DNA from: Geoalkalibacter ferrihydriticus DSM 17813
Lineage (GTDB): Bacteria > Desulfobacterota > Desulfuromonadia > Desulfuromonadales > Geoalkalibacteraceae
NCBI RefSeq assembly: GCF_000820505.1
Contig: NZ_JWJD01000001.1
Span: forward strand, 952,395-992,768
Direction of reading: 5' to 3'
Length of the DNA stretch: 40,374 nt
Position 1 is the stretch's first letter. The number at the start of each line of letters is the position of its first letter. The notes beneath the pieces are model-generated. The model was not told the DNA's origin. It worked only from the letters and a program-made list of their open reading frames with translations, and ran no database searches. The position numbers and the translations under genes are program-made. Below are positions 1 through 40,374 of the stretch, one piece after another.

Positions 1-3000
1 GTGGATTTGCAGTGGAGCCCGGCGACTGACGACACCGAGCCCCTCACCTATCTGGTGTACTGGGTTCCGTCAAGCCAGACCATCGACTGGAACAATCCCC
101 AGGCCACCACCACGGCGACGGCCTTTCATGTCACCGGACTGCAGAACGGGCTCGATTATCTGTTCGCGGTGCGCGCGCGCGATGCCTCACCGGCGCAGAA
201 CATCGACACCAATGCAGTGATCCGCATCGCCATCCCGCAGTCACCCAGTGAAAATGACATCTTTGGGCGCATGTACTATGCGGTGGCCGACAGCGGCACC
301 AACATCGGCGGCACCAGCACCAACCTGAGCTTGAGCTGCGACAGTTCCACGGATTTCACCTCTCACCGTATCTCGCTCATGCAGCCGGGCGGCTACAAAT
401 GCAGCCGCGACCGCGACCGCAACCGCCTTCGCAATATCAAAAGCAGCGGCAATATCGTCACCTGGGTGCTGGACAGCGCCTATACCACCAACACCAACAT
501 TCACGGCGGCTCCTTCACGCTGTATATGCGCAATCGTGAAAGCTCCAATACCATCAGGGTCTATTTCGACCTGGGTTACTGGGACAACGGCTTTGTGCAA
601 CTCGACAGCTACACGCGGGTGTTGCCGCGTCGCCATCGTGGCAGCGTCAAGGCGTATTTTCCCTCCGAGGACGGCAAGGTCGTGACCGTGCCCGAAGGCA
701 AGCGCCTGGCTCTCAGGGTGCGCAAGGACGGCTCGCGCGAGATGGAGATCTGGTTCGGCTCCAAGCGCGGCACCAGCATGCTCATTGTCTACGAGCAGGA
801 GCAGAATCTGCTGCCCGATCCCTTCAGCGTCACGACGCCGGGCTCGCCGGCGAGCGGGGTTGTGCCCATCACCTGGAATGCGGCCACGGACCCTGAAGGC
901 GATGAGGTGCGCTACGACGTCTATGGTTCGGTGGACGGCGGACAGAGCTGGCCTTATATCATCGCTCTGGACGAGGAAGGCACCAGCGCCCAGTGGGATA
1001 CCAGAAAGGATGGTCTGGCACTGACCGCGCCACTCAACAGCGTGCGGGTGCGGGTGGGGGCCGGCGACGGTCTGATGCACCGCATTCTGGAAACCGACCC
1101 CGGAGGTCTTGAAGTCGGCAGCTTCCACGATCGGCGCTACGCCCTGACCGGTACCTTCAGCGTGGACAACTCGGTGGATGTCACCCCGCCCGCCCCCATC
1201 ACCGATCTGGTGGCCGAGCACCGGCCCAAGGTCGGCACGGTGTGGCTCTACTGGCATGCGCCGGGTGATGACGGCATGGAGGGCCGCGCCCATCAGTACG
1301 ACATCCGCTACCAGGAGTCGGTGCCCTACAATTCTGCCGATGCCATCGACAGCGAGGCCAAATGGATGGCGGCAACCCCTGTCGTCGGCGCTCCGCCCCT
1401 TCCTGCCGAGCCGGGCAGCAGTCAGGGTTTCGAGGTGCTGGGCCTGAACCCCGGTAAGGACTATTTCTTCGCCGTCAAGACCGCCGACGCAGCGGGCAAC
1501 TGGTCGGGTCTGTCCAACTCGCCCTCGGCCAAGGGGGGCTTGCGCTGCGGCGTCTGTCACGGCAATCCACCTGATGATTACGCCACCATGGGCAGCCACG
1601 AGATGCACGGCTATACCCAGACGGATTGTGCCAAGTGCCACGGCGCCGCAGCCGAGCATTATGACCTGCAACATCCGGGCGGTGGTATCAAGCTCGCCTG
1701 GAACAATCCCAAAAAAGGCTATTTCAATGAGGCCGTCACCCACACCACTTTGTCAACCGACCTGGTGGAGTATCACGATGACGGGGTGCTGATCTATCGC
1801 GACGCCACGGGTCCGGGCGGCTTCAACGATCTGACCATCGAAATGAAGAACGTCGACAGCGGCACCTGTTTCGGGTTTAATGAAACGGGTGTGACAGGTT
1901 GCCACGGCAGCGGCGCGCCGGTATGGGGTGAGCGCGAATCGGTGTCCTGCGCACTGTGCCACGGCGACCCGGACCGCTCCAATCTGGACTACTATGGGCG
2001 CGCCTGGGAGGATCAGACCACCGATACCCGCTACGGCAACAATGAGCCCATCTACAAGGCGGCGCCGCCCATTAATCTGCTGGGCAACAGCGACGACCAT
2101 TCCGTCGGCCAGCACCTGCGCCACCTCAATTTCTCTTATCGTTTCACCGGTGATCAGTGTTCCCTGTGTCACATGAACGCCGATCACGCCGATGGCACAG
2201 TGGATGTGCGCCTGCATCCGGCGGCGGGCAGTCAGGCCGAATGGGTGCCGCCCCAGGGAGGCAATCCCGGCACCTGCCTAGGCACCTCGCAAATGCGCTG
2301 TCATGGCGACAGCCCCATCGACCCCGTATGGGCGCCGCGCAGTCCCGAGCCCCACGGACCCAAGCTGGTCAATTGCAACGAATGTCACGGCCATGAGGGC
2401 AATGTTTTCCGCGTGGGCGCCGCGACGCCCGTTCCTGAGCACTCAGCCACGGTAAGCAGCACGACCAACGGCTCGGGCACACAGACGGTCGTTCCCGTGC
2501 ACAGCGGCCACAGCATGCAGGCCGGCGATCGTTTCAGCAAGAACGGTCGGGCTTTTTACATCACCCAGACCACCGCGACGTCGCTCACCCTGAGCCGGCC
2601 TATCCCCGGCGGCATGACCTTTTACGCGGGCGATGTCATCGAAACCCGCCATATTCCGCATACCAGCGACGGCGGGGTGGTGCGCGAGTGCACCTGGTGT
2701 CATGTCGAGGGCCATCCCCAAGGCGATGAGACCGCCGAGGGGCGCAATCCCGAGGGCGAAGAGACGGTCTTCATCCCCAACTTCCCCATGGTCGGCATCG
2801 ATTACAGCTCGGGCGGCATTCATCTGCGCAAAGAGATCAACGGGCGTGGTCCTTTCCACACCGAAGCCGAGATCTGCTGGGGCTGCCATGACGCCCAGAC
2901 TCCGCGTATTTCCGAGTGGGGCTATTCCGCTCTGCCGAAAAACAAAAAGACCGAAGGTGCCATCAGCGGTGTCTCCCTCGGTACCACCACGACCGTGACC

Positions 3001-4482
3001 AGCAGCAATCACGGTCTGCAAACCGGCGATAGTGTGGTGATTTTCATGCCCAGAGGGCGCACCATTCTCAACGGCTGGGCCGGGACCATCACGCGTACCG
3101 GAGCCAATACGTTCAGGCTGGACAACACCAATACCGCCAGCATCGACAGCAACAGCCAAACCGGTAACTTCAATTCCACGGGCGCGCGCTGGAAGCTGGC
3201 GAGCAGTTATGATTACGGTCTGCTGCACAATGGTTCCGGAAGCTGGGGGAACCGTACGCCGACATCCAACTGGATCACGGGCACCTGGGACAGCCCCTAT
3301 TTCCCCTACAAGACAGGCGGAGTGCAGTCGACCCATTCAGCGAATCCCGATGTCATGCGCCCCGGTGTGGACGAGGTGGCTCAGATCCGTTGCAGCTACT
3401 GCCACGACGTTCACGATTTGAACCTGGCGCCGGGTGATGAATTCAGCGGCCGCCCTTACCTGCGCGGCAGTTGGAAGGGCAACCCCTACTTCGAGGACGG
3501 CGCGCCGGGACGATTCTCCGGTTATATGGATCTGCCCAACAACACCTATCGCGCCGAGTATTACTATACCGGCGAGCGCGACGACTTCGGCATGGTGCCG
3601 CGCGGCTCCACCGGTATGAACAAGATGGGCGGCTACTGGATCGACCAGAACAGCGATTATCCCACGGTGACCTGGACGCTGCAGGATTCGGCGGGCCTGT
3701 GCACCCTGTGTCACGGCACCGATGTCAACAACATGAACAAGTTCGACGTGGACGAGCAGGGCAATCCCGATAACGCCTGGCTGGGTGTCAACGGACATTC
3801 CAACGCCGTCATCGGCGGCAGCGGCATCCATCGCGCCAACGTCTATGACCCCGATCTGCGCAAGGAGGGCAATACTTTCAATAAACCCGGCATGGGTTAT
3901 CAGGACACCGACGGTTACCGCTCCGACCGGCCTGAACGCCTCTGGGGTCTGCGCAACCAGGATGAAGGAAGTACCTACATCAGCGACACTCACCGCACGG
4001 GGACAGCCAATCGCTACGGGGTCTATCCCTATGCCTGGAGCACCACCGACGGAAGAAACCGGTACGCCTACGAAGAGTTTTCGTGGGGGGTGGGTCGAGA
4101 AACCGGTCCCGGCGCTGCCGAGCCCATGTATCATCGCTTCAGTTGCTCCAAGTGCCACAACCCCCATGCCTCGCGCCTGCCGCGATTGATGATCACCAAC
4201 TGTCTGGACGTCAGCCACAACAAGTGGGACGATCTCTACGCGGATGATCCGGACTGGACCTCCGGCAGATATGACGGCAACAACATCAACTGGTCGACCT
4301 CCAACGTCATGCCCTACACCGGCAACGACGTCAGCGGCAAACCGCGTAACAGGCAGTATGCCTACGCCACCAGCGCCATCAACTGCCATCGCTTCGTCCA
4401 GGTCAACGGCGTCGTGCAGGAACCGGGCTGGAATCGCATCACGCCCTGGGAAGAAAACTCGACCTGGTATAACAACAACTAA
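1..4482 (+). CDS. Giant multihaem c-type cytochrome, C-terminal part (copy A, 5'-truncated by window edge)
   Basis: The reading frame is open from base 1 to the TAA at 4480-4482. The GTG at base 1 is an internal Val codon: the paralogue at 28655-36784 aligns from the first residue and continues about 1220 residues further upstream. The visible 1493 residues start in a fibronectin-III-like domain, followed by a beta-rich domain beginning ENDIFGRMYY, an Ig-like domain and another FN3 domain beginning ITDLVAEHRP. A haem domain follows from about residue 517 with ten CXXCH motifs. Two spaced variants are also present, CX10CH (1867-1905) and CX7CH (2275-2304), and the C-terminal pattern CLDVSH...AINCH leaves 60 residues between its two Cys. 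Two beta-barrel-like inserts, each with a HxMQAGD/HGLxTGD-type turn, interrupt the haem region. The protein ends EENSTWYNNN, as copy B does. It is presumably secreted and extracellular (inferred). DNA differs from copy B at many silent sites while the protein is well conserved, which suggests an old duplication kept by selection. Confidence 0.93.
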   Translation: MDLQWSPATDDTEPLTYLVYWVPSSQTIDWNNPQATTTATAFHVTGLQNGLDYLFAVRARDASPAQNIDTNAVIRIAIPQSPSENDIFGRMYYAVADSGTNIGGTSTNLSLSCDSSTDFTSHRISLMQPGGYKCSRDRDRNRLRNIKSSGNIVTWVLDSAYTTNTNIHGGSFTLYMRNRESSNTIRVYFDLGYWDNGFVQLDSYTRVLPRRHRGSVKAYFPSEDGKVVTVPEGKRLALRVRKDGSREMEIWFGSKRGTSMLIVYEQEQNLLPDPFSVTTPGSPASGVVPITWNAATDPEGDEVRYDVYGSVDGGQSWPYIIALDEEGTSAQWDTRKDGLALTAPLNSVRVRVGAGDGLMHRILETDPGGLEVGSFHDRRYALTGTFSVDNSVDVTPPAPITDLVAEHRPKVGTVWLYWHAPGDDGMEGRAHQYDIRYQESVPYNSADAIDSEAKWMAATPVVGAPPLPAEPGSSQGFEVLGLNPGKDYFFAVKTADAAGNWSGLSNSPSAKGGLRCGVCHGNPPDDYATMGSHEMHGYTQTDCAKCHGAAAEHYDLQHPGGGIKLAWNNPKKGYFNEAVTHTTLSTDLVEYHDDGVLIYRDATGPGGFNDLTIEMKNVDSGTCFGFNETGVTGCHGSGAPVWGERESVSCALCHGDPDRSNLDYYGRAWEDQTTDTRYGNNEPIYKAAPPINLLGNSDDHSVGQHLRHLNFSYRFTGDQCSLCHMNADHADGTVDVRLHPAAGSQAEWVPPQGGNPGTCLGTSQMRCHGDSPIDPVWAPRSPEPHGPKLVNCNECHGHEGNVFRVGAATPVPEHSATVSSTTNGSGTQTVVPVHSGHSMQAGDRFSKNGRAFYITQTTATSLTLSRPIPGGMTFYAGDVIETRHIPHTSDGGVVRECTWCHVEGHPQGDETAEGRNPEGEETVFIPNFPMVGIDYSSGGIHLRKEINGRGPFHTEAEICWGCHDAQTPRISEWGYSALPKNKKTEGAISGVSLGTTTTVTSSNHGLQTGDSVVIFMPRGRTILNGWAGTITRTGANTFRLDNTNTASIDSNSQTGNFNSTGARWKLASSYDYGLLHNGSGSWGNRTPTSNWITGTWDSPYFPYKTGGVQSTHSANPDVMRPGVDEVAQIRCSYCHDVHDLNLAPGDEFSGRPYLRGSWKGNPYFEDGAPGRFSGYMDLPNNTYRAEYYYTGERDDFGMVPRGSTGMNKMGGYWIDQNSDYPTVTWTLQDSAGLCTLCHGTDVNNMNKFDVDEQGNPDNAWLGVNGHSNAVIGGSGIHRANVYDPDLRKEGNTFNKPGMGYQDTDGYRSDRPERLWGLRNQDEGSTYISDTHRTGTANRYGVYPYAWSTTDGRNRYAYEEFSWGVGRETGPGAAEPMYHRFSCSKCHNPHASRLPRLMITNCLDVSHNKWDDLYADDPDWTSGRYDGNNINWSTSNVMPYTGNDVSGKPRNRQYAYATSAINCHRFVQVNGVVQEPGWNRITPWEENSTWYNNN

Positions 4483-4865: not shown

Positions 4866-7800
4866 TTACTGTGCGTAAACCTCAAGTTCGTTGATGGAAT
4901 AACCGTTGGAGCTTCTGGCCCTGTTGCACTCGATCCGCACATAGCGCTCGCTGCGGCTGCTGAAGGTGATCTCAGAAGTGCCGCCGCTGAAGTCCTTGAT
5001 TTCACGCACCGTCGACCAACTGCTGCCGTCGCGTGATACCCGCACCCGGAATTCGCGTGCGTAATCATCATGCCAGCGAATTACCACACGGCTGACGCTC
5101 TGGCGGCTGCCCAGATCAACGTCCAATCGTTCAGTGCTGGTGCTTCTCGCCCACCAACGGGTATCGAGCTTGCCGTCGACAGCGTTGCGGTGACTGTAGC
5201 CTCTCTCCGAACGCGTGGCGCTGGTTGATTTGTTCAGCGCCAGGTTGTCACCTTCGGGCTCGGGCGCCGAGGGCGAGGAAAAAGCGCTTTCGGCGTAAAC
5301 TTCGAATTCACTCAAAGAGTAGCCGTCCCGCGAGCGTGCCTGGCGCATTTCAAGGCGCACATAGCGCGCGTTGCGCGTGGGGATCGTGCGCACCTCGTAG
5401 CCGCCCGTGCCGTTCTTGAATTCCAGAACGCGATCCCAGCTGCTGCCGTTGGAAGAGACGTAAATCCGATATTCTTCCGCATGCAGGTTGCTGTACCAAT
5501 CAAACGCGAAGGCGGCGACAGGGTAGGTGGCACCCAGGTCAACTTCAAATGTCGTGTCGCTGGTGCTTCTTGTCCACCAACGGGTGTCGATATTGCCGTC
5601 GACCGCGTTGGAGGCGTGATAGCCGCTTTCCTGGCGCGAGGCTTTGGCCGTTTTGTTGAGAGCAAGGTTCGGCCCGTCAGGCACGGGTGCGATGATTCCG
5701 GCGTCGGAATCGCACAGCGAACCGAGGTAGACCGCCTCGGCCAGGCGATAGGTGGCCAGATCGACGCGATTGCGGCTGAGATGATCGCGCCATCTGCTAC
5801 TATCGCACTTGACCTTGTCGGCGCGCGAACTATGGCAGCTGGTACATTTCGAAAGATCGCCCAGGTTTTGAGCATCATCGAAATGCGGCACCAGGTAGGC
5901 TCTGCCGCCGTATTCGATCGTGGCGACGTTGAAAGGCATGGTTGTCGCGGCGATCTTGAAGCCGCCCTTGTCCTTCATGTCTTCGCCGTTGGGGCGGATA
6001 TCCTCCCCCGGACCTTCCTTGATGGCGAACATGGACCAGAACAGGTTGAATTTGCCCTTGCCCGCGCCGTAGCCGGTGTAGCCGGGAATGCTGGCGGGAG
6101 CGGCGTGGTAGGGCTTGGTGTCATGGCAGGCCGCGCAGGCGCCGTAATTCTGGATGGGGCCGCCTTTGTCATGCATGTATTGTCCATGACATTCCCGGCA
6201 GGCGGCCTGATGCGGGCGATCCATAACCTCGGGCGGAACGCTGTGGCAGAAGGCGCAATTGCCTGTCTGGGACTGCATGGTCGTGTGGTGTGGATCGGAC
6301 ATGTGGCAATCCGCGCAGGAGGTTGACGAACTGGCCGCGGTGTGGCACACGCTGCAATCGCCGCCGACCTGCATGAGCGGATCACCGTGATGGATTTCGG
6401 GGATGGGCGCCGTGTGGCAGGCCTGGCAGCTGTCGCCCGAAGTCTTGATGGTGCTGTGGCAGGCGGTGCAGTCGCCGCTAATCGCCGCGGGCTGGCCGTG
6501 GTGATTGGGGCTGCTGTGGCAGGCCGCACAGCTTATATTGACCGGCTCGGCGCCGGTGTGACAGAAGAGGCACTGACCCATGAGAAACGCCTGGGTCGAG
6601 TGGTGGCGCTCACTGGCCAGGGGTGAGCCGGACTCGAAATGGCAGGCCGAACAATCCAGCCCATCGACATCGGCGCCGACATGACAGGAGGTGCAATCAT
6701 CCATCTGTGCGGGGATGGTCATGTGGTGCAGGTCGTTGATGGCGGGTTGCCCGTCGCCGGTGTGGCAGCCCTGGCAATCCAGGAAGGTGTAATCGGCGCC
6801 GACATGGCAGACCGTGCACTGACCTTGCAAGGCCAGATCAAAGGCGTGGTGGCGATCGCCGACGCTGCCGTTTGCCGAGTCGTGGCAATCGTTGCATGAC
6901 TGGATGCCTACATCGGCTCCGGCGTGACACAGGGTGCAATTGTCGGCGAAAAAGGCGTCGGTGGTGTGGTGCGCCTCAACGATGTCGCCGGTGCCGACCA
7001 GGGTCGTGTGGCAGGCGACACAGTCATCAGGCGTGGGCATGGTCAAGGCGAAGACAGGGGTCCATTGATATTCATGGCAATCCATGCAACCCAGGCCCCA
7101 CTCCGCCAAAATGGCGTCGTCATGGTGGCGGTTGCCTTCAAAGGTCGGGAAGCTGTGGCAGCTCGCGCAGCCGCTGGTCGATGTCATCTGGGTATGGCAG
7201 CTGACGCAATCAAAGCCCCCGGTGTCGGCGAGCAGATGGTGCTGGTCGCGATTCGATTCGGCGCCATGACAGCTCTGGCAGCCGGTCTCGGGCTGCAGCG
7301 AAGTGTGGCAGCTGGTGCAGCTGACATTTTGTGTTGCCGCATAGTCGTGATGAGCGTCTTGCGCCGTGCCCGGCTGGTGGCAGCTCTGGCAGCTGGTGGT
7401 GACAACGATATTGGTGTGGCAGGAGGCACAGGAGAGGCCCTGGCTGTCGACCAGATCATGATGGCGCACGCGTACCGAGCCGGCATGGCAGCTCTGGCAG
7501 GAGGTATCGGCGGACATGGTGGTATGGCAGGACACGCAGGACACGCCGGCGGCGGCAATTTCATGATGGCGGTTCTGGGTTTTGCCCTGATGGCAGCTCA
7601 GGCAGTCACCGAGATCGCCGACGCCGCTGTGACAGGAAATGCAGTTGCCGACCAGTGCGTCGGGGGTTTCGTGGTGAACATTCTGCAGCCCGAAGCCGTG
7701 ACAACTGGAACAGTCGCCTTCGGTATCGAAGCCTTCATGGCAGCGAAAGCATTCGCCGGCAAAGAACCAGGATGTTTCATGATGGCGCTCGGCCACGTCC

Positions 7801-7949
7801 TGACCGTGGCAATCGGAGCAATTTATGGGTGATGTTCCCCCGTTGCTTGATGCCCAGCTTGCAGTGGGCAGGCACAAAAGTGCGGCAACCAGACAACAAA
7901 TGAAAAAGACCGGCGCAAGGCGCGCGAAATCCCGCTGAACGACCCCCAT
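4866..7949 (-). CDS. 31-haem c-type cytochrome with HH-repeat modules and two C-terminal discoidin (F5/8 type C) domains
   Basis: Predicted 1027-residue secreted cytochrome. The frame extends upstream to 8159, but ATG at 7949 is preferred: a GGGAG-type ribosome site lies just upstream, and a signal peptide follows at once (hydrophobic VFFICCLVAALL, cleavage near SWA-SS). I count 31 CXXCH motifs between about residues 40 and 705, roughly one per 21 residues. About 14 HH dipeptides (RHHE, VHHE, DAHHD, ERHHS and similar) sit ahead of alternate haem motifs. They are well placed to supply distal His ligands, so the haem region reads as a tandem array of two-haem modules. About residues 758-885 and 900-1027 are two homologous discoidin domains, each with NLALNK, NAVDG..DTRWW and RYVR signatures. 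This fold usually binds carbohydrate. The likely role is a long electron conduit anchored to polysaccharide outside the cell (inferred). It is the last gene of the leftward block and has its own terminator. Confidence 0.93.
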   Translation of the reverse strand: MGVVQRDFARLAPVFFICCLVAALLCLPTASWASSNGGTSPINCSDCHGQDVAERHHETSWFFAGECFRCHEGFDTEGDCSSCHGFGLQNVHHETPDALVGNCISCHSGVGDLGDCLSCHQGKTQNRHHEIAAAGVSCVSCHTTMSADTSCQSCHAGSVRVRHHDLVDSQGLSCASCHTNIVVTTSCQSCHQPGTAQDAHHDYAATQNVSCTSCHTSLQPETGCQSCHGAESNRDQHHLLADTGGFDCVSCHTQMTSTSGCASCHSFPTFEGNRHHDDAILAEWGLGCMDCHEYQWTPVFALTMPTPDDCVACHTTLVGTGDIVEAHHTTDAFFADNCTLCHAGADVGIQSCNDCHDSANGSVGDRHHAFDLALQGQCTVCHVGADYTFLDCQGCHTGDGQPAINDLHHMTIPAQMDDCTSCHVGADVDGLDCSACHFESGSPLASERHHSTQAFLMGQCLFCHTGAEPVNISCAACHSSPNHHGQPAAISGDCTACHSTIKTSGDSCQACHTAPIPEIHHGDPLMQVGGDCSVCHTAASSSTSCADCHMSDPHHTTMQSQTGNCAFCHSVPPEVMDRPHQAACRECHGQYMHDKGGPIQNYGACAACHDTKPYHAAPASIPGYTGYGAGKGKFNLFWSMFAIKEGPGEDIRPNGEDMKDKGGFKIAATTMPFNVATIEYGGRAYLVPHFDDAQNLGDLSKCTSCHSSRADKVKCDSSRWRDHLSRNRVDLATYRLAEAVYLGSLCDSDAGIIAPVPDGPNLALNKTAKASRQESGYHASNAVDGNIDTRWWTRSTSDTTFEVDLGATYPVAAFAFDWYSNLHAEEYRIYVSSNGSSWDRVLEFKNGTGGYEVRTIPTRNARYVRLEMRQARSRDGYSLSEFEVYAESAFSSPSAPEPEGDNLALNKSTSATRSERGYSHRNAVDGKLDTRWWARSTSTERLDVDLGSRQSVSRVVIRWHDDYAREFRVRVSRDGSSWSTVREIKDFSGGTSEITFSSRSERYVRIECNRARSSNGYSINELEVYAQ

Positions 7950-10960: not shown

Positions 10961-11446
10961 CTATTCCTCTTCGGAATTTTCGTCCCAGCCGTCTTCTTCC
11001 AGATCTTCCATGTCGTCCTCATCCGGTTGGGCCATTTCGACCATGAAACGCACCGCCAGGGACACGGCTTCGGCGCGCAGTTGCGGGTTGCCGCCGCGCG
11101 CCGGCATCAGGCCGCTTTCGCCCTGGTAGCCTTGGATGGCATTTTCCACCAGCTTGTGCATGCCCTTGTCCAGGCGCGGTTGCCAGGCGGGTACATCGCC
11201 CAGGCGCGGCGCGCCGCCCTCGCCGTCGTTGTGGCATTGAGCGCAGGCGCGGTGATAATAGCGTGCGCCCATTTCGGCCAAGTCCTGAGGATTGTTGGTC
11301 ACGATGGGACCCGAGGGTGTCGGCCGCGCTTCCGGTGCCTTTACCGCGGACGGCTCCTCTTTGGGTGCCGGCGGTGCGGGCTCCTCGCGGCTACAGGCGA
11401 CGAGAAAGACCAACAGGGTGCAAAGCAAAAACAGAGGGCGAATCAT
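10961..11446 (-). CDS. Monohaem class I cytochrome c lipoprotein with acidic tail
   Basis: 161 residues. The ATG at 11446 follows AAGGAG by 6 nt. The N-terminus is a lipoprotein signal (LVFLVAC-S), so the protein is predicted to be membrane-anchored in the periplasm or outer membrane. A Pro/Ala/Glu-rich linker of about 40 residues leads to a small cytochrome c domain with a single CAQCH haem site, GLGDVP-like and GLMPARGG segments; the Met of GLMP is the likely sixth ligand. The last about 25 residues are almost entirely Asp/Glu, an unusual acidic tail that could dock to a basic partner. It starts 24 bp after the TPR lipoprotein gene and probably belongs to the same operon. A 153-bp gap with no gene separates it from the downstream spermidine-synthase-like gene. 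Confidence 0.9.
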   Translation of the reverse strand: MIRPLFLLCTLLVFLVACSREEPAPPAPKEEPSAVKAPEARPTPSGPIVTNNPQDLAEMGARYYHRACAQCHNDGEGGAPRLGDVPAWQPRLDKGMHKLVENAIQGYQGESGLMPARGGNPQLRAEAVSLAVRFMVEMAQPDEDDMEDLEEDGWDENSEEE

Positions 11447-28444: not shown

Positions 28445-28472
28445 AAAAGGGTGCCTTTGTGGCGCCTTTTTT
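28445..28472 (+). terminator. Rho-independent terminator after the beta-sandwich/beta-helix operon
   Basis: AAAAGG(G)TGCC-TTTGT-GGCGCCTTTTTT forms a stem of about 10 bp with one bulge and one wobble pair, followed by six T. It lies 29 nt after the stop of the beta-helix lipoprotein and should separate it from the giant cytochrome gene. Confidence 0.75.
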
Positions 28473-31600: not shown

Positions 31601-34600
31601 AGCGACAAGCTGAGCTACCAGAATCTGGCCTGCGCCTCCTGCCACCCCGATCCGGGCGGCAGCAACGCCTCGGGCGGCCCGCATTCGAGCCCCGTGACCG
31701 GGCGCGCCGACACCACCGCCGACGTGCATGGCGATGTGTGGAACAGCACCCAGTTCCGCGACCTGTACGGCAATGTCGATCCCACCGGTTTCTACAACCC
31801 GGTGATCAAGCGCTGCTCCAACATCGCCTGCCACAGCAACGGCGACTTCACCTGGACCTGGTACGAGGACCAGATCGCCCCGAGCAAGATCACCGATCTG
31901 GTCGCCGTCACCGGCAGCGCGGTCGGCACGGTCAACCTCGCCTGGACGCCGCCTTACAACGACGGCGACCTGGGGCCGGAATATCTTGGACCCAAGGGGC
32001 CGGGCGTGTACGGTTACGAGATTCGCTACCGCACCGGCGGTGCGGTGACGGATGCCAACTGGACCTCTTCGACCATCGCTGCCGGGCCGCCCTCGGCCGT
32101 GCGCAACTACGAGGACGACCCGCGCATCCAGACCATGACGGTTTACGGCCTGCAACCCGGCACCACCTATTACTTCGGCGTCAAGGCCTTCGACGAGACC
32201 ATGATCAACCACTCGCCGGTCTCCAACAGCCAGGGCGCCCAGGCGCTGCTGGATAGCTTCGCACCGCGCTTCCAGGGGCTTGAGTCGGCCCAGCCCGCCT
32301 ACATCGACGGCTCCGTGGACCTGCACTGGAGCCCGGCGCGCGACGACACCGGCCCCCTCACCTATCTGGTGTACTGGGTTCCGTCAAGCCAGACCATCGA
32401 CTGGAATAACCCCCAGGCGACCACCACCGCCACCACCTTCCACGTCACCGGACTGCAGAACGGTCTCGATTATCTGTTCGCGGTGCGCGCGCGGGATGCC
32501 TCCCCGGCGCAGAACGTGGATGCCAACACGGTGATCAAGATCGCCATTCCCCAGGTGGCGAACGAGAACGACATCTTCGGTCGCATGTACTACGGTATCG
32601 CCAACAGCGGCACCAATCTCGGGGGAACAACGACCAACCTGAGTTTGGGGTGTGGAAGCTCCCTAAGCTTTACGTCCCACCGTATTTCGTTGATGCGCGC
32701 CTCTGGTTATGTGTGCGGCGATCGAACCCGCAACCGTATTCAAAGCATCAACAGCAGCGGCGATATCGTCACCTGGGTACTCGATACGGCCTATGCCGTG
32801 GATACCAACATTCATGGCGGATCCATGTCGCTGTATCTGCGCAACCGCGAAGACAGCAACACCATCGTCGTGCACTTCGACCTGGGCTACTGGGACAACG
32901 GCTTCCAGCAGTTGGACAGCTATCGCCGTGTCTTGTCGCGCCGCCACCGCGGTAGTGTCAAGGCTTATTTCCCGTCGGTGGACGGAATGGTCTATACGGT
33001 GCCGGCCGGCAAACGTCTGGCCATTCGCCTGCGCAAGGAAGGAACCCGCGAAATGGAGGTCTGGTTCGGCTCCAAACGCGGCGCAAGCCTGCTCACCGTC
33101 TACGAGCAGGAGGAAAACAAGCTGCCGGGCCCCTTCAGCGTCACTTCTCCGGGGGCAACGGTAAGTGGCGATGTGCCTATTACCTGGACGGCGTCCACCG
33201 ACCCCGAAGGCGATCAGATCTTCTACGATGTTTACGGATCCGTGGACGGCGGCGTGACCTGGCCCTATGTCATCGCCCTGGACGTGCCCGGCACCAGCGC
33301 GGTGTGGCGGACAAAGAACGATGGTCTGGCCCTCAACGCGCCCCTCAACAACGTGCGGGTGCGGGTGGGCGCGGGCGACGGGATGCTGCACCGCATCATC
33401 GGCAGCGACCCCGGCGGGTTGGCGGCGGGCACTTTTCATGATCGTCGCTATGCCGTGACCAACACGTTCACAGTGAACAACTCGGTGGATACGACGCCGC
33501 CCGCGGCCATCACCGACCTGGTCGCCGAGCACCGGCCCAAGGCCGGCACCGTGTGGCTCTACTGGCACGCGCCCGGCGACGACGGCAAGGAAGGGCGCGC
33601 CCATCAGTACGACATTCGTTATAAGGAATCGGTGCCTTACAACGCGGCCGATGCCATCAACAGCGAGGCCAAGTGGAGCGCCGCGACCCCCGTGATGGGT
33701 GCGCCGCCCCTGCCGGCCGACCCCGGCCGCAGCCAGGGGTACGAAGTGCTGGGTCTCAACCCCGGCAAGGATTATTTCTTCGCCGTCAGAACCGCCGATA
33801 AGGCGGGCAACTGGTCGGGCCTGTCCAACTCGCCCTCGGCCAAGGGCGGCCTGCGCTGCGGCGTGTGCCACGGCAACCCGCCCGATGACTTCGCCACCAA
33901 GGGCAGCCATGAGATGCACGGCTATACCCAGGTGGATTGCGCCAAGTGCCACGGCGAGCAGTCCCAGCATTATGATCTCAAACACGATGTGGGCAGCATC
34001 CGCCTGGCCTGGAACAATCCCAAGAAGGGCTATTTCAACGCAGCGACCACGCACACAACCCTGAGCGCCAGTCTGGTCGAGTATCACGACGGCGCCCATC
34101 TCATCTATCGCGACAGCACGGGCCCGGGTGGCTTTAACGACCTGAGCATCGAGAAACAGAATGTCGACAGCGGGAGCTGCTTCGGCTTCAACGCCACCGG
34201 CGTCACCGGCTGCCACGGCAGCGGCGCGCCCGTGTGGGGCGAGCGCGACTCAGTGTCCTGCGCGCTGTGCCACGGCGATCCTAACCGCTCCGCAAAAGAC
34301 TATTACGGGCGCGACTGGGAGGATCAGACCACCGACAGCCGTTACGGCGGCAACAAGCCCATCTACAAGGCGGCCCCGCCCATCAACCTGCTGGGTAACA
34401 GCAATGACTTCTCGGTGGGCCAGCATCTGCGCCACCTCAACTTCTCCTATCGCTTCACCGGCGATCAGTGCTCCCTGTGCCATCTGGGTGCCGATCACGC
34501 CGACGGCACGGTGAACGTCATCCTGTCTCCGGCCGCGGGCGACGACGCCCAGTGGATTCCGCCCCAGGGCGGCAACCCCGGCACCTGCATCGGCACTTCG

Positions 34601-36784
34601 CAGATGCGCTGCCACGGCGACAATGCCGATCCGCCGGAATGGCGGCCGCGCGCATCCGAGCCCGACGGGCCCAAGCTCATCACCTGCAACGAATGCCACG
34701 GCCACGAAAGCAACGTATTCTGGCCGGGCGCCACGGTGGCCGCAGCCACGGTAGGGCGCGCCTCCACGGTGAGCGGCAATCAGAACGGCGACGGCATCAA
34801 GACCACCCTCACGGTGTCGAGCACCGCCAACAATCTGCAGGTGGGCGATCGCATCAAAAAGGGCGAGACCTTCTTCAAGATCCTGGTCAAGGATGGTACC
34901 ACCCTGACCCTGCATCAACCCATTCCCGTCGGCGTTAATTTTACCAACGGTGAACTCGTGCGCACCGAGCACATCCCCCACGTCTATGACGGCGGTGTGG
35001 TACGCGACTGCACCTGGTGCCATGTGGAGGGTCATCCCCAGGGCGATGAGACTGCCGAGGGCCGCAATCCCCTGGGCGAGGAGACGGTGTTCATCCCCAA
35101 CTTTCCCATGGTGGGCCTCGATTACAGCTCGGGCGGCATTCACCTGCGCAAGACCATCAACGGGCGCGGCCCCTTCCACACCGAGGCCGAGATCTGCTGG
35201 GGCTGTCATGATGCGCAAGCGACGCGCATTTCCGAGTGGGGTTACGCAGGCGTGGAAAGGGGCAGGAATGTCGGTGCTGCCATCGGCAGTGTCTCCAAAT
35301 CCCTAGGCCAGCCCATCAGCATCACCAGCAACGGACATGGCCTGGTGACAGGAGATCGGATCGTCATTTCCATGCCCACGGGGAGCAGGCAGCTCAACGG
35401 CTGGGCCGGAACCATCACCCGGACCGGCACCAACACCTTTACGCTGCTTGATACGGAAAGCTATTCCATCACCACCTCAACCAGCTCCGGGTCATGGAAA
35501 TTCGCCACCCACTATGACTATGGAATCCTTCATACGAACTCCGGAAGCTGGGGCAACCGCACACCAACCTCCAACTGGGTCACGGGGACCTGGGACAGCC
35601 CCTATTTCCCCTACAAGACCGGCACCGTCAAGTCGACGCACGCCGCCAATCCCGACGTGACCCGCCCCGGTGTCGACGACGTAGCGCAGATCCGTTGCAG
35701 CTATTGTCATGATGTCCATGATATGAACCATGCTCCGGGCGACGTGTACAACGGGCGACCCTACCTGCGCGGCAGTTGGAAAGGCAACCCCTACTTCGAG
35801 GACGGCGCGCCTGGCCGTTTCAAGGGTTTTATGGACCTCTCCACCGATGCCCTCAAGGCTCAGTACTATTTCACGGGCGAACGCGACGACTTCGGCATGG
35901 TGCCGCGCGGCGCCACCACCATGAACAAGATGGGCGGTTACTGGATCGATCAGAACAGCGATTATCCCACCGTCACCTGGACCCTGCAGGATTCCGCTGG
36001 TCTGTGTACCCTGTGCCACGGCACAGACGTCAACAACATGAACAAGTTCGCGGTCGACGAGCAGGGCAACCCTGACAATGCCTGGCTGGGTGTGAATGGA
36101 CATTCCAACGCCGTCATCGGCGGCAGCGGCATTCACCGCGCCAACGTCTACGACCCGGCCGTGCGCAAGGAAGGCAATGCCTTCAACAAGCCGGGCATGG
36201 GCTACCAGGATACGGTCGGCTACCGTGTTGATCGCCCCGAGCGCATGTGGGGATTGCGCAACGAGGATGAGAGCAGTACCTTCATCTCGGATACCCATCG
36301 CACCTCGACCAACAGCGTGGGGGTTTATCCCTATGCCTGGAGTCCGACTGCGCAGAAAAATATCTATGCCTACGAAGAGTTTGCCTGGGGGGTCAGCATG
36401 GAATCCGGGGTGGACGCGGCGGAGCCCATGTATCACCGCTTCAGTTGCTCCAAGTGTCACAACCCCCATGCCTCGCGTTTGCCGCGTCTGATGATCACCA
36501 ACTGTCTGGACGTGAGCCACAACAAGTGGGACGATCTTTATTCGGTCGATGGCGACTGGACCTCGGGGCGCTATGACGGCACCAATATCAACTGGTCGAC
36601 CTCCAACGTCATGCCCTACACCGGCAACGACGTCAGCGGCAAGGCGCGCAACCGCCAGTTCGCCTACGCCACCAGCGCCGTCAACTGCCACCGCTTCGTC
36701 AAGGTGGGCACCACCATCCAGGAGCCGGGTTGGAACCGCGTCACGCCCTGGGAGGAAAATTCGACCTGGTACAACAACAACTAG
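28655..36784 (+). CDS. Giant 2709-residue multihaem c-type cytochrome with FN3-like domains (copy B, complete)
   Basis: The frame opens at 28532, but ATG 28655 is chosen: GGGGG lies upstream, a signal peptide follows (VFSLVFVALGALSAEA-T), and copy C starts at the equivalent point. Haem block 1 (residues about 29-1060) has 24 CXXCH plus CX4CH (30143-30163), CX3CH (30512-30529) and CX4CH (near 31814). It contains the Geobacter-type CxxxxCH...CxxCH module (TCSNLYCHSSGG...TCNACHGN). Residues about 1074-1725 are beta domains: two FN3-like, a domain beginning ENDIFGRMYY, an Ig-like and another FN3. Haem block 2 (1733-2690) adds ten CXXCH, CX10CH (34178-34216), CX7CH (34586-34615) and CLDVSH...AVNCH, and is interrupted by two small beta-barrel inserts. 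Total about 40 haem sites. Presumably an extracellular electron conduit or filament-like cytochrome (inferred); no outer-membrane anchor is seen. Confidence 0.96.
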   Translation: MRWWWRQWVFSLVFVALGALSAEATVVHNFDCKNCHKVGVSFTDLGQGTTNLCLQCHKEGAGSILMLDGTFRSPGGRFAPGDASNAMGSYPAGLNEGDQVSHMWAAKDVNAAAGAQAPSDRRFYGRYNISTGKITCQRCHDPHSRDPQNTKILRLGAGSRDQMCIQCHAPWVVGSEDRGLLTHPTVESYAAVVAAQPEKYRSSAEVEAWPGDIQLLSNGGVGCSSCHGVHFADSRSDTPTAPGQAGTGDGKLLRGDGPQSAGTYPLCQACHTYKAHGSAVEEVGCLVCHSGHSYNNGEVNYFVLRSQAQTLTYGAVGGLRYAALPAFHGGSSTTAAQWAGSPGAADGFCERCHGELTSMPNSARAHIEGENCLDCHNHSGAGMEYSFAANCADCHGFPPSANVAGGPGGYAYVEGGHNYAASSNPKNEDFTPHTSHSGAGSGYGFACNLCHNADDFAATHNQGSFQDIFLGGNSFNSLTTGGGILNPSYNAAGNGTCSNLYCHSSGGKHNPSGKTLSDFTTVNVSWGGGKGAITTCNACHGNDADSMDGRNSSAHLKHLAAGYACNVCHVDTAGSATALQPGARGTTHVNGAVDVAFATGYNLGNALLGAGSFNSGDGSCAVFCHSDGQGNFASPAWGDAASGACGSCHAVAGENLSGSHAVHVDATGANIGCGTCHGAGAHAGSHAGHVDGALTVDGDACNACHGVESPEILLVWGNPASADCITCHTGAQTTVYVDADGRERTASAKSVYFSAGHGASPFDQACSSCHSLDFDSAHMGAADTTRLRVLFGRDFSTDPNGFCRFCHSASTPSHFASSGASEDASSCVACHDPHGQSESSDAMVRTEIGGRQVVGFADRGVRESYFLATPNASGNNQYGICQVCHDAGAVNYFNRTVDAPAHFAGQCLSCHEHDHETTAFTPSGCNGCHGGGNNATPADNFWPDGELRDGYNIADRAGSHFVHVDAIGQALSGLSDGAWAAYSDKLSYQNLACASCHPDPGGSNASGGPHSSPVTGRADTTADVHGDVWNSTQFRDLYGNVDPTGFYNPVIKRCSNIACHSNGDFTWTWYEDQIAPSKITDLVAVTGSAVGTVNLAWTPPYNDGDLGPEYLGPKGPGVYGYEIRYRTGGAVTDANWTSSTIAAGPPSAVRNYEDDPRIQTMTVYGLQPGTTYYFGVKAFDETMINHSPVSNSQGAQALLDSFAPRFQGLESAQPAYIDGSVDLHWSPARDDTGPLTYLVYWVPSSQTIDWNNPQATTTATTFHVTGLQNGLDYLFAVRARDASPAQNVDANTVIKIAIPQVANENDIFGRMYYGIANSGTNLGGTTTNLSLGCGSSLSFTSHRISLMRASGYVCGDRTRNRIQSINSSGDIVTWVLDTAYAVDTNIHGGSMSLYLRNREDSNTIVVHFDLGYWDNGFQQLDSYRRVLSRRHRGSVKAYFPSVDGMVYTVPAGKRLAIRLRKEGTREMEVWFGSKRGASLLTVYEQEENKLPGPFSVTSPGATVSGDVPITWTASTDPEGDQIFYDVYGSVDGGVTWPYVIALDVPGTSAVWRTKNDGLALNAPLNNVRVRVGAGDGMLHRIIGSDPGGLAAGTFHDRRYAVTNTFTVNNSVDTTPPAAITDLVAEHRPKAGTVWLYWHAPGDDGKEGRAHQYDIRYKESVPYNAADAINSEAKWSAATPVMGAPPLPADPGRSQGYEVLGLNPGKDYFFAVRTADKAGNWSGLSNSPSAKGGLRCGVCHGNPPDDFATKGSHEMHGYTQVDCAKCHGEQSQHYDLKHDVGSIRLAWNNPKKGYFNAATTHTTLSASLVEYHDGAHLIYRDSTGPGGFNDLSIEKQNVDSGSCFGFNATGVTGCHGSGAPVWGERDSVSCALCHGDPNRSAKDYYGRDWEDQTTDSRYGGNKPIYKAAPPINLLGNSNDFSVGQHLRHLNFSYRFTGDQCSLCHLGADHADGTVNVILSPAAGDDAQWIPPQGGNPGTCIGTSQMRCHGDNADPPEWRPRASEPDGPKLITCNECHGHESNVFWPGATVAAATVGRASTVSGNQNGDGIKTTLTVSSTANNLQVGDRIKKGETFFKILVKDGTTLTLHQPIPVGVNFTNGELVRTEHIPHVYDGGVVRDCTWCHVEGHPQGDETAEGRNPLGEETVFIPNFPMVGLDYSSGGIHLRKTINGRGPFHTEAEICWGCHDAQATRISEWGYAGVERGRNVGAAIGSVSKSLGQPISITSNGHGLVTGDRIVISMPTGSRQLNGWAGTITRTGTNTFTLLDTESYSITTSTSSGSWKFATHYDYGILHTNSGSWGNRTPTSNWVTGTWDSPYFPYKTGTVKSTHAANPDVTRPGVDDVAQIRCSYCHDVHDMNHAPGDVYNGRPYLRGSWKGNPYFEDGAPGRFKGFMDLSTDALKAQYYFTGERDDFGMVPRGATTMNKMGGYWIDQNSDYPTVTWTLQDSAGLCTLCHGTDVNNMNKFAVDEQGNPDNAWLGVNGHSNAVIGGSGIHRANVYDPAVRKEGNAFNKPGMGYQDTVGYRVDRPERMWGLRNEDESSTFISDTHRTSTNSVGVYPYAWSPTAQKNIYAYEEFAWGVSMESGVDAAEPMYHRFSCSKCHNPHASRLPRLMITNCLDVSHNKWDDLYSVDGDWTSGRYDGTNINWSTSNVMPYTGNDVSGKARNRQFAYATSAVNCHRFVKVGTTIQEPGWNRVTPWEENSTWYNNN

Positions 36785-37168: not shown

Positions 37169-40100
37169 ATGCAGTGCTGGAAAAAATGGATGTTTTCGTG
37201 TTTTTTTCTAATTGTGACGGCGTTTCCTTCCGGTGCTACGGTCGTCCATAATTTCGACTGCAAGAACTGCCACAAGGTCGGTGTGAGTTTCACCGACCTG
37301 GGTCAGGCTCACACCAATATCTGCCTGCAGTGCCATAAGGACAACCCCAGCTCCTGGACCATGCTCGACGGTTCCAGCAAAACACCCATCGGCCTGTTCG
37401 CGCCGGGCGATGCCAGCAATGCCCTGGGTTCCTATCCCGAAGGCATGACCCCTGGTTCGCAGACCTCGCACATGTGGGCGTCGCCGGATGTCAACAGCGC
37501 GGCCGGTGCCCAGGCACCGAGCGACCGCATGTTTTACGGGCGCTACGGAATTTCCACCGGAAAAGTCACATGCCAGCGCTGCCACGATCCTCACAGCCGT
37601 GACCCGGAAAACACCAAACTTCTGCGCCTGGGAGCCGGCAGCGTCGAGCAGATGTGTGTCGAGTGCCATGTGCCCTGGGTGGTCGGCACACCGGACCGCG
37701 GCCTGCTGTCGCACCCCATCGTGCCGGATTACACGGCGGCGGTGGCGGACAAACAGGACCGCTTCCGCCTGGCTGATGAAGTGGCGGACGCGCCCGGCGA
37801 GGTGAAATTGGTGGATGGCGGGGTGGTGTGCACCTCCTGCCACGGAGTGCATTTTGCCGATTCTCGTTCGGCGACTCCGATTGAGCCCGGCGCGGCGGGC
37901 TATGGGGACGGCAAACTCTTGCGTTCCGACGGGCTGTTGGCCGAGGACGCTTCGGTACTCTGCCAAGCCTGTCATACTTACAAGGCCCACGGCAGTCCCA
38001 CGGAAACGGTGGGTTGCCTGGTGTGTCACAGCGGCCATTCCTACAACGCCGGCGAGATTAATTATTTCGTGCTGCGCAATCAGGCGCAGACGGGGGTTTT
38101 CGGAGAGGTCGGCGGTTTACGCTACACAGCTCTGCCCGACGTGCATGGCGGCACTTCCACCGTCGCCGCCCAGTGGGCAGGCCAGTCCGGCGCGGCGGAT
38201 GGCTTCTGCGAACGCTGCCACGGTGAATTGACCACCATGCCCAACAGTTCGCGTGCCCACATCGAAGGCGAAAATTGCCTCGACTGTCATAGCCATAATG
38301 CTCCCGACATGGCCTATTCTTTCGCCGCCAACTGCACGGATTGTCATGGTTTTCCGCCTGCGGTGAATGTCGCGGGCGGCCCCGACGGTTATGCTTCCGT
38401 CGAAGGTGGACACAATTATGCCGATGACAATTTCTACAAGAACGAAGCTCTCGCCCCGCACACCTCCCATGCCGGCGCGTCCAGCGGCTACGCCTTTGCC
38501 TGCAACCTCTGCCACAACGCCGATGATTTCGCTGCCACGCACAGCCAGGGAACTTTTCAGGATGTGTTTCTCGCGGGCAACACGCTTGATCCCCTGGTCA
38601 CCGGCGGCGGTATCCTGAATCCATCTTATGATCCGGCCGGCAGCGGCACCTGCAGCAATCTCTACTGCCACAGCAGCGGCGGCAAGCACAATTCTTCGGG
38701 CAAAACGCTGAGCGACTTCACCACCCAAAGCGTTTCCTGGGCAAACGGCAAGGGCGCCATCACCACCTGCACCGCCTGTCACGGCAACGATGCGGCGAGC
38801 ATGGACGGGCGAAATTCAAACACGCATCTCAAGCACTTGGCCGCCGGTTACGCCTGCAACGTCTGTCACGTGGAGACTGCGAGCAGTGCCACACAACTCA
38901 CGCCTGGGGCACGCGGCACTACCCACGTCGACGGGGTGGTGGATGTAGTCTTTGACGGCAACTACAACCTCGGCAACGCGCTGCTCGGCGCGGCGACCTA
39001 CAGCAGTGTGGACGGCAGCTGCGCGGTATTCTGCCATTCCGACGGCCAGGGCAACTACGCCACGCCTGAATGGGGCGATGCCGCAAGCGGTGCTTGCGGC
39101 AGTTGTCACGCAACCGATGCTCCAGGTTTGGGCGGCAGCCATGCCGTGCACGTCAATCCCGCAGGCGCCAATATCGGTTGCGCGGCCTGTCACGGCGAAG
39201 GAGCTGATGTGGGCGGCCATTCCGGACACGTCGACGGCGCGCTCACGGTGATGGAGAGCGCCTGCAATAGCTGCCACGGAGTGGAGTCGCCCGAGATCAT
39301 CCTGGTGTGGGGCAGCTCCGAGAGCGCCGATTGCCTGACCTGCCACACCGGCGCACAAACGACCGTGTATGTAGACGCCAGCGGCCAGGAGCGCACAGCC
39401 TCTGCCAAGAGCGTGTATTTTTCCGCCGGGCATGGCGCCATTTCCTTTGGTCAGGTGTGCGGCGATTGCCATAGCGACGCTTTCGATGCCGCGCACATGG
39501 GCGCGACCAGCACCACGCGTCTGCGCACCCTCGATGGCAAGGATTTCAGCAGTGATCCCAGCGGTTTCTGCAGCGCCTGTCACAGCTTTGCGGCTCAGGT
39601 TCACTACGCCACCGGCGGCACAAGCCACGACGCCTCGGCCTGCATCGCCTGCCATGATCCCCACGGTCAGAGCGCGAGCCTTGACGCCATGGTGCGCGCC
39701 GAAATCGATGGCCGCCAGGTGGTGGGTTTTGCCGACCGCAACGAGCGCGCAAGCTACTACCTGGAGTTGCCCAACGACGGCGGTAGCAATCAGTACGGCA
39801 TCTGCCAGGTCTGTCATGAATCAAGCGCGGTCAATTATTTTAATCGCAGTGTCGAAGCGCCGACACACTTTGCGGGTCTGTGCATCAGCTGCCACATGCA
39901 TGACGGCGAAGAGATGGCTTTTGCGCCCACCGGCTGCAACGGTTGCCACGGCGGCGGCAACAACGAGCCGCCTACGGATAACTTCTGGCCCGACGGGCAG
40001 TTGCGTGACGGCTACACCATCGCCGATCGCGGGGGGGCGCACCTCACTCATGTCAATGCCATCGGCCAGGCGCTGTCCGGACTGGACGACGGTGCCTGGG

Positions 40101-40374
40101 CGGCTTACAGCAACAAACTCGGCTACCAGAACGCGACCTGCAGCCACTGCCATCCCGATCCGGGCGGGCGCAACGCCGAGGGCGGGCCGCACTCCGAACC
40201 CATCGGGGGACGGAGCGATCTGGTTGCCGATGTCCACGGCGATGTCTGGAACGACACCAACTTTACAGATCTTTTCGGCAATGTCGATGTGACCGGCTTC
40301 TACAATCCGGTGATTCAGCGCTGCTCCAACATCGCCTGTCACAGCAACGGCGACTACACCTGGACCTGGTACGA
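37169..40374 (+). CDS. Giant multihaem c-type cytochrome, N-terminal part (copy C, 3'-truncated by window edge)
   Basis: ATG 37169 follows GAGGTG by 5 nt, and the frame stays open to the last base (1068 codons). It begins with a signal peptide (MFSCFFLIVTAFPSGA-T) and then ATVVHNFDCKNCHKVGVSFT, nearly identical to copy B. I count 24 CXXCH motifs plus the same three variants in the same order: CX4CH (38651-38671), CX3CH (39020-39037) and CX4CH (40322-40342). The Geobacter-type CxxxxCH...CxxCH module is present (TCSNLYCHSSGG...TCTACHGN). The visible part ends at the boundary where copy B enters its FN3-like region (YTWTWY), so the same C-terminal half is expected beyond the window. It has its own promoter candidate and follows a strong terminator, so it is probably transcribed separately from copy B. 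Confidence 0.93.
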   Translation, partial: MQCWKKWMFSCFFLIVTAFPSGATVVHNFDCKNCHKVGVSFTDLGQAHTNICLQCHKDNPSSWTMLDGSSKTPIGLFAPGDASNALGSYPEGMTPGSQTSHMWASPDVNSAAGAQAPSDRMFYGRYGISTGKVTCQRCHDPHSRDPENTKLLRLGAGSVEQMCVECHVPWVVGTPDRGLLSHPIVPDYTAAVADKQDRFRLADEVADAPGEVKLVDGGVVCTSCHGVHFADSRSATPIEPGAAGYGDGKLLRSDGLLAEDASVLCQACHTYKAHGSPTETVGCLVCHSGHSYNAGEINYFVLRNQAQTGVFGEVGGLRYTALPDVHGGTSTVAAQWAGQSGAADGFCERCHGELTTMPNSSRAHIEGENCLDCHSHNAPDMAYSFAANCTDCHGFPPAVNVAGGPDGYASVEGGHNYADDNFYKNEALAPHTSHAGASSGYAFACNLCHNADDFAATHSQGTFQDVFLAGNTLDPLVTGGGILNPSYDPAGSGTCSNLYCHSSGGKHNSSGKTLSDFTTQSVSWANGKGAITTCTACHGNDAASMDGRNSNTHLKHLAAGYACNVCHVETASSATQLTPGARGTTHVDGVVDVVFDGNYNLGNALLGAATYSSVDGSCAVFCHSDGQGNYATPEWGDAASGACGSCHATDAPGLGGSHAVHVNPAGANIGCAACHGEGADVGGHSGHVDGALTVMESACNSCHGVESPEIILVWGSSESADCLTCHTGAQTTVYVDASGQERTASAKSVYFSAGHGAISFGQVCGDCHSDAFDAAHMGATSTTRLRTLDGKDFSSDPSGFCSACHSFAAQVHYATGGTSHDASACIACHDPHGQSASLDAMVRAEIDGRQVVGFADRNERASYYLELPNDGGSNQYGICQVCHESSAVNYFNRSVEAPTHFAGLCISCHMHDGEEMAFAPTGCNGCHGGGNNEPPTDNFWPDGQLRDGYTIADRGGAHLTHVNAIGQALSGLDDGAWAAYSNKLGYQNATCSHCHPDPGGRNAEGGPHSEPIGGRSDLVADVHGDVWNDTNFTDLFGNVDVTGFYNPVIQRCSNIACHSNGDYTWTWY

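Follow-up and report, generated by a model that had tools for sequence, protein, structure and literature searches.

Conserved envelope gene modules in Geoalkalibacter ferrihydriticus and their association with the GeoRSP cassette and with giant multihaem cytochromes

Introduction

Porin-cytochrome conduits, the gamma subunits of type II DMSO reductases, the NosZ maturation proteins, the GeoRSP system and the CxxxxCH/CxxCH multihaem cytochromes are the described systems closest to the genes reported here. These genes are found in a 40,374-nucleotide stretch of the genome of the probable iron reducer Geoalkalibacter ferrihydriticus DSM 17813 (NZ_JWJD01000001.1; G000:C1:952395-992768, where G000 is the organism's own genome), and this whole stretch is termed the window. 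It contains two conserved gene modules, A1 (EB_dh–CarboxypepD–HEAT–NapH) and B1 (SpdM and CarboxypepD/NosD pairs), and parts of three paralogous giant cytochromes (Table 1). An initial annotation, made from the letters alone, had proposed that the window is one undescribed locus for extracellular electron transfer.

Judged from gene content and order, A1, B1 and the GeoRSP loci seem to make up a single conserved envelope system in the Desulfuromonadales, widespread but unstudied; a search on GeoRSP and the A1/B1 module found nothing in print within the literature searched. The giant cytochromes form a unit of their own, which tends to occur with this system and, in some lineages, beside it. 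An unexplained radical SAM/PqqD cassette is in this way linked to a constant group of redox proteins of the envelope, and by co-occurrence statistics also to giant cytochromes. This gives a concrete gene set for asking how metal-reducing bacteria make or use very large cytochromes.

Comparison with described systems

The porin-cytochrome conduits (OmbB-OmaB-OmcB, Ext, MtrABC) resemble the window in having multihaem cytochromes and probable lipoproteins. They differ in that no outer-membrane barrel was recognised among the window proteins, which were scanned with Pfam and NCBIfam profiles. That no porin is visible, as first annotated, agrees with the lack of an MtrB/PioB match in the G. ferrihydriticus genome at E 1e-10, a search that did not extend to OmbB, Ext or other barrel types.

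The EB_dh protein of A1 shares PF09459 and its fold with the gamma subunits EbdC and NXR-C. Its predicted model (pLDDT 73.8, pTM 0.77, with low confidence around SCHHG and CX3CH) matches NXR-C (7b04_C, Foldseek E 6.8e-11) and the ethylbenzene dehydrogenase gamma subunit EbdC (2ivf_C); the score against TIGR03477, the gamma subunit family, is 29.2 bits, under the cut-off of 169.85. The haem b ligands of NXR-C are Met155 and Lys305, according to PMC8387239. In the EB_dh proteins, by contrast, the N-terminal Cys17, SCHHG, CX3CH and Met170 are kept in 20 of 20 aligned sequences and there is no invariant Lys; the CX3CH is a possible unusual covalent haem site. Also unlike the EbdC and NXR-C systems, no Mo enzyme turned up among the scanned window proteins. 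The initial annotation described a haem-b-type lipoprotein, of which the family assignment stands; its lipidation depends on a looser Cys motif judged by eye.

NosZ maturation (NosD, NosR/NapH) likewise brings together NosD-type beta-helices and a NapH-type polyferredoxin, but the window proteins fall far under the curated cut-offs (NosD2, 43.3 bits vs 300 for TIGR04247; NapH-like protein, 27.8 vs 213.05 for TIGR02163).

The GeoRSP system is represented by three NCBIfam families (TIGR04302/04303/04304). A TIGR04303 radical SAM/SPASM protein is present in G. ferrihydriticus (450.6 bits, cut-off 400) beside PqqD-like and SPASM-like proteins, which are divergent relatives under their cut-offs (92.8 vs 100 for TIGR04302; 105.6 vs 300 for TIGR04304). 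The cassette is, however, outside the window, and A1 and B1 are not part of the family names.

Giant copy 2 passes the cut-offs of both CxxxxCH/CxxCH families (TIGR01904, 54.5 bits vs 27; PF09698, 35.2 vs 21.7) and has CX4CH motifs. The giants differ from these cytochromes in their length of ~2,700 amino acids (aa), their fn3 domain and their three copies around the A1/B1 block.

Conservation of A1 and B1 and their connection to GeoRSP

In a main sample of 147 genomes, relatives of the EB_dh protein (EBdh) are found in 59 genomes at E 0.001 and in 46 at 1e-70 (hand count). NosD2 relatives are found in 68 at E 0.001, a figure that includes paralogues, and SpdM relatives in 62 at 1e-40, in 40 of these at 55% identity or more.

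Of 213 EB_dh relatives, the loci of the best 80 were scanned. The A1 genes are consecutive, as far as each contig reaches, in the 35 best named loci (L072-L106), except that the charts of L073 and L082 show no separate CarboxypepD (CPD) open reading frame and that L094 has a split NapH. The genes 3′ of A1 are directly GeoRSP-side genes in 20 loci and other genes in 4, while 11 loci end with the contig (hand count); of the 24 loci whose next gene is visible, 20 thus continue on the GeoRSP side. A response regulator like A2_RR is directly upstream of A1 in 27 of the 35. The most distant relative, L105 (35% identity), keeps the A1 gene order and also runs into GeoRSP-side genes. Among the same best 80, the weaker relatives (L107-L148) have no NapH-like or CPD neighbours charted. 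The NapH-like polyferredoxin has invariant Cys residues across 21 aligned sequences.

The GeoRSP cassette of G. ferrihydriticus (radical SAM, PqqD, YedE) is on another contig, G000:C7. The locus, with some names given by eye, has genes for a response regulator of the sigma-54 type, a small binding-protein-like product and two NosD-like proteins, PhnD-like and TPR genes, YedE, PqqD-like, radical SAM/SPASM and SPASM-like genes, a cysteine desulfurase family gene and a small lipoprotein gene. A second locus, on G000:C9 (some names likewise by eye), has an ArsP-type permease, CarboxypepD, NosD/propeller, NosD2-like, OsmF-like, DUF362 and polyferredoxin genes.

The charts speak against the window being one unit. 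Among 22 charted genomes (the window's included), A1 and B1 are adjacent in 8, apart in 12 and undetermined in 2; some of the cases counted as apart are on different contigs of draft genomes, though with other neighbours. Giant cytochromes adjoin A1/B1 in 5 of the 22, four of them from one family (G000, G001, G002, G005) and one from another (G009). In G121 and G040, fragments of related open reading frames are found at contig ends near the modules. In G010:C38 and G062:C21, paired 12-CXXCH open reading frames are present ~10 kb from the A1/B1 block.

Co-occurrence across genomes

Co-occurrence among related genomes was assessed with Fisher's test and with a count by genus; the presence threshold for giant cytochromes was E 1e-10. 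GeoRSP is present in 40 of the 46 EBdh genomes vs 15 of 101 others, and SpdM in 38 of 46 vs 2 of 101. Giant cytochromes are present in 43 of 55 GeoRSP genomes vs 7 of 92 without GeoRSP. By genus, 22 have both GeoRSP and a giant cytochrome, 6 have GeoRSP only, 2 the cytochrome only and 31 neither. In a nifH control the odds ratio was 2.0 (p 0.06) for GeoRSP and 1.8 (p 0.16) for the cytochrome. The initial annotation had named co-occurrence of these families in other genomes as its own check, and such co-occurrence is what was found.

In a second sample, 141 genomes of another order, giant cytochromes are present in 31 of 35 GeoRSP genomes vs 30 of 106 without; matches outside the cytochrome's own order are weaker (~29-45% identity), and other multihaem proteins may be among them. 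Six genomes of this order (G136, G137, G139, G142, G143, G146) were charted around GeoRSP. In three of them, G142, G137 and G146, GeoRSP occurs with NosD, CarboxypepD and OsmF-like genes among large multihaem open reading frames having 11-34, 11-25 and 14-27 CXXCH each (G137 is of the same genus as G142). G139 has an 8-CXXCH open reading frame ~10 kb and a 27-CXXCH one ~29 kb from GeoRSP. Near GeoRSP and the 27-CXXCH frame of G139 there is also a 5,682-aa open frame with at most one CXXCH (C4, 141687-158732). In G142, G137 and G146 a gene that we take to be ResB-like accompanies GeoRSP as well.

Sigma-54-type elements

A strict element was defined as GG[CT]A-N6-TTGC within 150 bases upstream. 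It was selected after the sites of a looser scan had been seen, and the expectation given for it is therefore post hoc. Of the 46 unique regions upstream of EBdh, 43 contain the element, against 0.22 expected from shuffles; of the other three, one has a site at 157 bases, one a site at 195 bases and one none that is convincing. Before SpdM it is found in 6 of 22 regions, that is, in 6 of 10 divergent arrangements (window included) and in 0 of 12 others. Elsewhere it is rare or absent: HEAT 0/41, NapH 1/37, CPDs 0/102, NosD1 0/42, PhnD-like 0/33, NosDb 2/76, OsmF-like 0/14, rSAM 0/32, and FG-GAP 0/11, still 0 when widened to 400 bases. These promoter-like sequences make A1 and, in several genomes, SpdM look as if they are under sigma-54 control.

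A looser weighted scan over 400 bases gave p <0.05 for 3 of 12 giants (window copies 2 and 3 and one of G002). The match 175 bases before copy 3 (window 36974-36990) scores 14.0 (p 0.007), the same as that of EBdh, without the strict element. A sigma-54 promoter before copy 2 (window 28459-28475, score 13.5) was set aside because the match overlaps a terminator-like hairpin, and the G002 match likewise overlaps one. Matches before CPD1 were disregarded, as they appear within the SpdM coding sequence.

The giant cytochromes

The giants have 34 CXXCH motifs each; for copies 1 and 3 these are 24 and 10 counted on either side of gaps. Both window ends are single scaffold N's (window 0 and 40375) inside copies 1 and 3. 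There are four such N's, at G000:C1 951849, 952394, 992769 and 993313, two per giant copy and ~545 bases apart, and at one of them ~100 bases are duplicated. Because the frames of copies 1 and 3 appear to break where the N's are, in one case at the duplication, these breaks are likely, though not proven, to be assembly artefacts, and genuine frameshifts were dropped as an explanation. The pieces between the N's (544 and 543 bases) show 512 identities, 31 mismatches and 1 gap. Over ~2 kb, the pieces included, copies 1 and 3 share 90-97% identity; the remaining 200-column windows give 57-88%. A single collapsed repeat contig placed in both gaps is unsupported, since the pieces differ at 31 positions and one gap and the high identity extends beyond them. 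This longer stretch could be due to gene conversion or to an assembly effect.

A 24-haem cytochrome of 1,208 aa from G. ferrihydriticus, downstream of a 38-haem one, has been described, both as candidates for extracellular electron transfer (PMC12016550). The arrangement is like that of copies 3 and 2. Copy 2 has 37 haem-type motifs of the three counted types vs 38 haems, and the open frame of copy 3, with the N counted in, reaches the next stop after 1,269 aa vs 1,208 aa. The published protein has two fn3 domains at its N-terminus, whereas the fn3-like sequence here comes after the haem part. Apart from these misfits, the published 24-haem cytochrome may be copy 3 truncated by an assembly gap; a cytochrome already in print would then be shortened.

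The ~180-base leader before copy 2 (window 28476-28654) resembles leaders in G002 and G001. An Rfam search of the leaders at E 1 gave two weak matches for copy 2 and none for copy 3, and the folding stability of the copy 2 leader is not unusual. No riboswitch was found in the cytochrome leader; no Rfam family reached its gathering score in the searched loci, a TPP riboswitch in L154 excepted. The latter (L154:16656-16767) is in the same genome, near the C9 locus.

On the question of a cytochrome nanowire, a PDB sequence search gave a single match, 3ouq_A (E 0.0097). The AlphaFold model of the N-terminal part is unusable for comparison with a polymerising haem-chain fold (pLDDT 32.2).

After copy 3 there is what we presume to be a ResB-like cytochrome biogenesis protein (G000:C1 998776-1000008), and one also follows a giant in G001. 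G151:C134 and G026:C123 have open frames of 3,816-4,360 aa in which some stretches resemble the giant cytochromes.

Possible function

From gene content, conservation, order, promoter-like elements and co-occurrence we infer a set of functional steps. The NapH-like polyferredoxin would draw electrons from the quinol pool, and the EB_dh/NXR-C-like haem protein would receive them. At the cell surface or in the periplasm, a redox cofactor or a surface protein would be assembled or loaded by the NosD-type beta-helix and CarboxypepD proteins, and the GeoRSP enzymes would produce a modified peptide or cofactor for the target so loaded. The beneficiaries would be surface redox proteins, e.g. the giant cytochromes. 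Of the explanations considered, an envelope redox/maturation module that serves surface cytochromes is put first, as a tentative choice. It is favoured by A1 running into GeoRSP-side genes (20/35), the GeoRSP loci of the same genome, the elements before EBdh and SpdM, the co-occurrence, the large multihaem frames around GeoRSP in G142, G137, G146 and G139 and the EB_dh fold. The co-occurrence also points to a possible shared role of the GeoRSP system and the giants in cell-surface electron transfer.

Several observations weigh against this interpretation. The strict element is before none of 12 giants, also within 400 bases, and copy 2 is preceded by a terminator-like hairpin between NosD3 and itself; it is therefore probably its own transcription unit. 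The 31-haem cytochrome is likewise mostly in GeoRSP genomes (15 of 16), and the link of GeoRSP to the giants may therefore reflect a cytochrome-rich lifestyle. No giant cytochrome was found at E 1e-10 in 11 of the 46 EBdh genomes, several of them fragmentary, and in G076, whose listed completeness is 100%, there are 8 giant hits (C150/C124) and no GeoRSP match. Six GeoRSP-bearing genomes of the other order in the first sample gave no EBdh or SpdM matches, and G136 and G143 have no open reading frame with >10 CXXCH in the stretches read around GeoRSP. The co-occurrence figures themselves come from Fisher's test among related genomes, and the genus count is the only correction for descent.

The second explanation, somewhat unlikely, is that of the initial annotation, i.e. 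that the locus acts directly as a conduit, carrying electrons from the inner membrane to giant cytochromes held outside the cell in a polysaccharide-binding matrix. Redox proteins, exported-looking products and giant cytochromes within one 40-kb region, the F5/8C domains on the 31-haem cytochrome, the co-occurrence of giants with GeoRSP and the published candidates arranged like copies 3 and 2 (PMC12016550) are consistent with it; the few genomes in which giants adjoin A1/B1 and the lack of a promoter element common to modules and giants argue against it, as does the lack of a recognised barrel among the scanned proteins. The proposed grouping of parts was half right, and the idea of electron transfer is partly supported, by association through co-occurrence.

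It is unlikely, and ranked third, that A1, B1 and GeoRSP handle selenium or sulfur oxyanions (by uptake, sensing or a Se/S-containing cofactor) with the giants as bystanders. The GeoRSP locus has a YedE protein (TIGR04112, 397.4 bits, cut-off 200), a cysteine desulfurase family protein (TIGR01977, 454 bits, cut-off 377) and a PhnD-like protein with sub-cut-off matches to TtrS and to a putative selenate-binding family, and the ArsP-type permease would fit as well; that giants neighbour the system in two orders and co-occur with it at the genome level does not suggest bystanders. A chance neighbourhood, in which the Geoalkalibacter lineage would have gathered functions that have nothing to do with each other, is the least probable explanation: modules and cytochromes are separable and one family supplies four of the five clear adjacency cases, but GeoRSP is beside large cytochromes in another order and the strong co-occurrence contrasts with the weak nifH control.

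The envelope redox/maturation interpretation could be extended to a distinctly unlikely, class-wide form: an undescribed respiratory system of the Desulfuromonadia in which GeoRSP radical SAM enzymes, sigma-54-controlled quinol-fed haem/polyferredoxin modules and surface NosD/CarboxypepD proteins would install a modified peptide or cofactor that giant 30-40-haem extracellular cytochromes require. If this were true, loss of the system would silence a class of giant cytochromes.

Gene content of the window

Table 1. Features of the window (positions are those of the window)
Feature	Position	Strand	Basis or remark
Giant cytochrome copy 1, C-terminal part (10 CXXCH)	1..4482	+	N-terminal part (24 CXXCH) upstream of window
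31-CXXCH cytochrome, two C-terminal F5/8C (discoidin) domains	4866..7949	-	Pfam/motif count
MFSspd, fused MFS-like/spermidine-synthase-like membrane protein	8273..10807	-	NF037959, 111.4 bits, cut-off 40
Mono-haem c-type cytochrome, lipobox-like LVAC	10961..11446	-	PF13442
TPR-like protein, probable lipoprotein by eye	11471..12787	-	Weak TIGR02917, no Pfam match
NapH-like membrane polyferredoxin (A1)	12793..14295	-	PF12801; Fer4_5
HEAT-repeat protein, probable lipoprotein by eye (A1)	14342..15241	-	PF13646
CarboxypepD_reg lipoprotein, lipobox-like LGGC (A1)	15241..15981	-	PF13620
EB_dh/NXR-C-like haem protein (A1)	16236..17249	-	PF09459, 84.5 bits, cut-off 33.3
Sigma-54-type element (GG-N10-GC) before A1	17316..17332	-	Strict motif scan
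FG-GAP/ASPIC-UnbV protein	17621..19084	+	PF13517, PF07593
Sigma-54-type element before SpdM	19210..19226	+	Strict motif scan
SpdM, membrane protein with spermidine-synthase-like domain (B1)	19241..21670	+	PF01564
CPD1, CarboxypepD_reg protein	21700..22776	+	Profile match
NosD1, right-handed beta-helix	22770..23966	+	PF05048/PF13229
CPD2, CarboxypepD_reg protein	23963..25048	+	Profile match
NosD2, right-handed beta-helix	25026..26396	+	Profile match and relatives
CPD3, CarboxypepD_reg protein	26393..27442	+	Profile match
NosD3, beta-helix lipoprotein	27481..28416	+	Profile match, lipobox check
Terminator-like hairpin with T's, between NosD3 and giant copy 2	28446..28472	+	Sequence; sub-threshold Rfam family match showing hairpin
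Giant cytochrome copy 2, complete, 2,709 aa, fn3 domain	28655..36784	+	34 CXXCH + 1 CX3CH + 2 CX4CH
Giant cytochrome copy 3, N-terminal part (24 CXXCH)	37169..40372	+	Runs on past scaffold N

The first annotation had listed about 100 CXXCH motifs in five cytochromes. A count of exactly 100 was obtained in the five annotated cytochrome open reading frames (10+31+1+34+24; the six-frame total is 103, with 3 elsewhere), which are one mono-haem protein, one 31-CXXCH protein, one complete giant and two giant fragments. Most of its other assignments were borne out by the profiles: the NapH-like polyferredoxin, the FG-GAP propeller, the two membrane SAM-domain proteins (membrane proteins with spermidine-synthase-type domains) and the three beta-sandwich/beta-helix pairs, which are CarboxypepD/NosD-type pairs accompanied by a fourth CarboxypepD protein. 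For the HEAT and TPR lipoproteins, the HEAT repeats were recovered; the TPR assignment was weak.

Whether the window products are exported or lipidated was assessed by eye. Only 3 of 19 open reading frames match a simple lipobox pattern, and the EB_dh, HEAT, TPR and CPD1 products have a looser Cys motif.

On the minus strand the order of transcription is EB_dh, CarboxypepD, HEAT, NapH-like, TPR-like, mono-haem protein and MFS/spermidine-synthase-like protein. On the plus strand it is the FG-GAP/ASPIC protein, SpdM and then the three CarboxypepD/NosD pairs, with ends mostly touching or overlapping. Relatives of the 31-CXXCH cytochrome are found in 16 of the 147 genomes (E 1e-10). The true start of SpdM may be ~14 codons further in.

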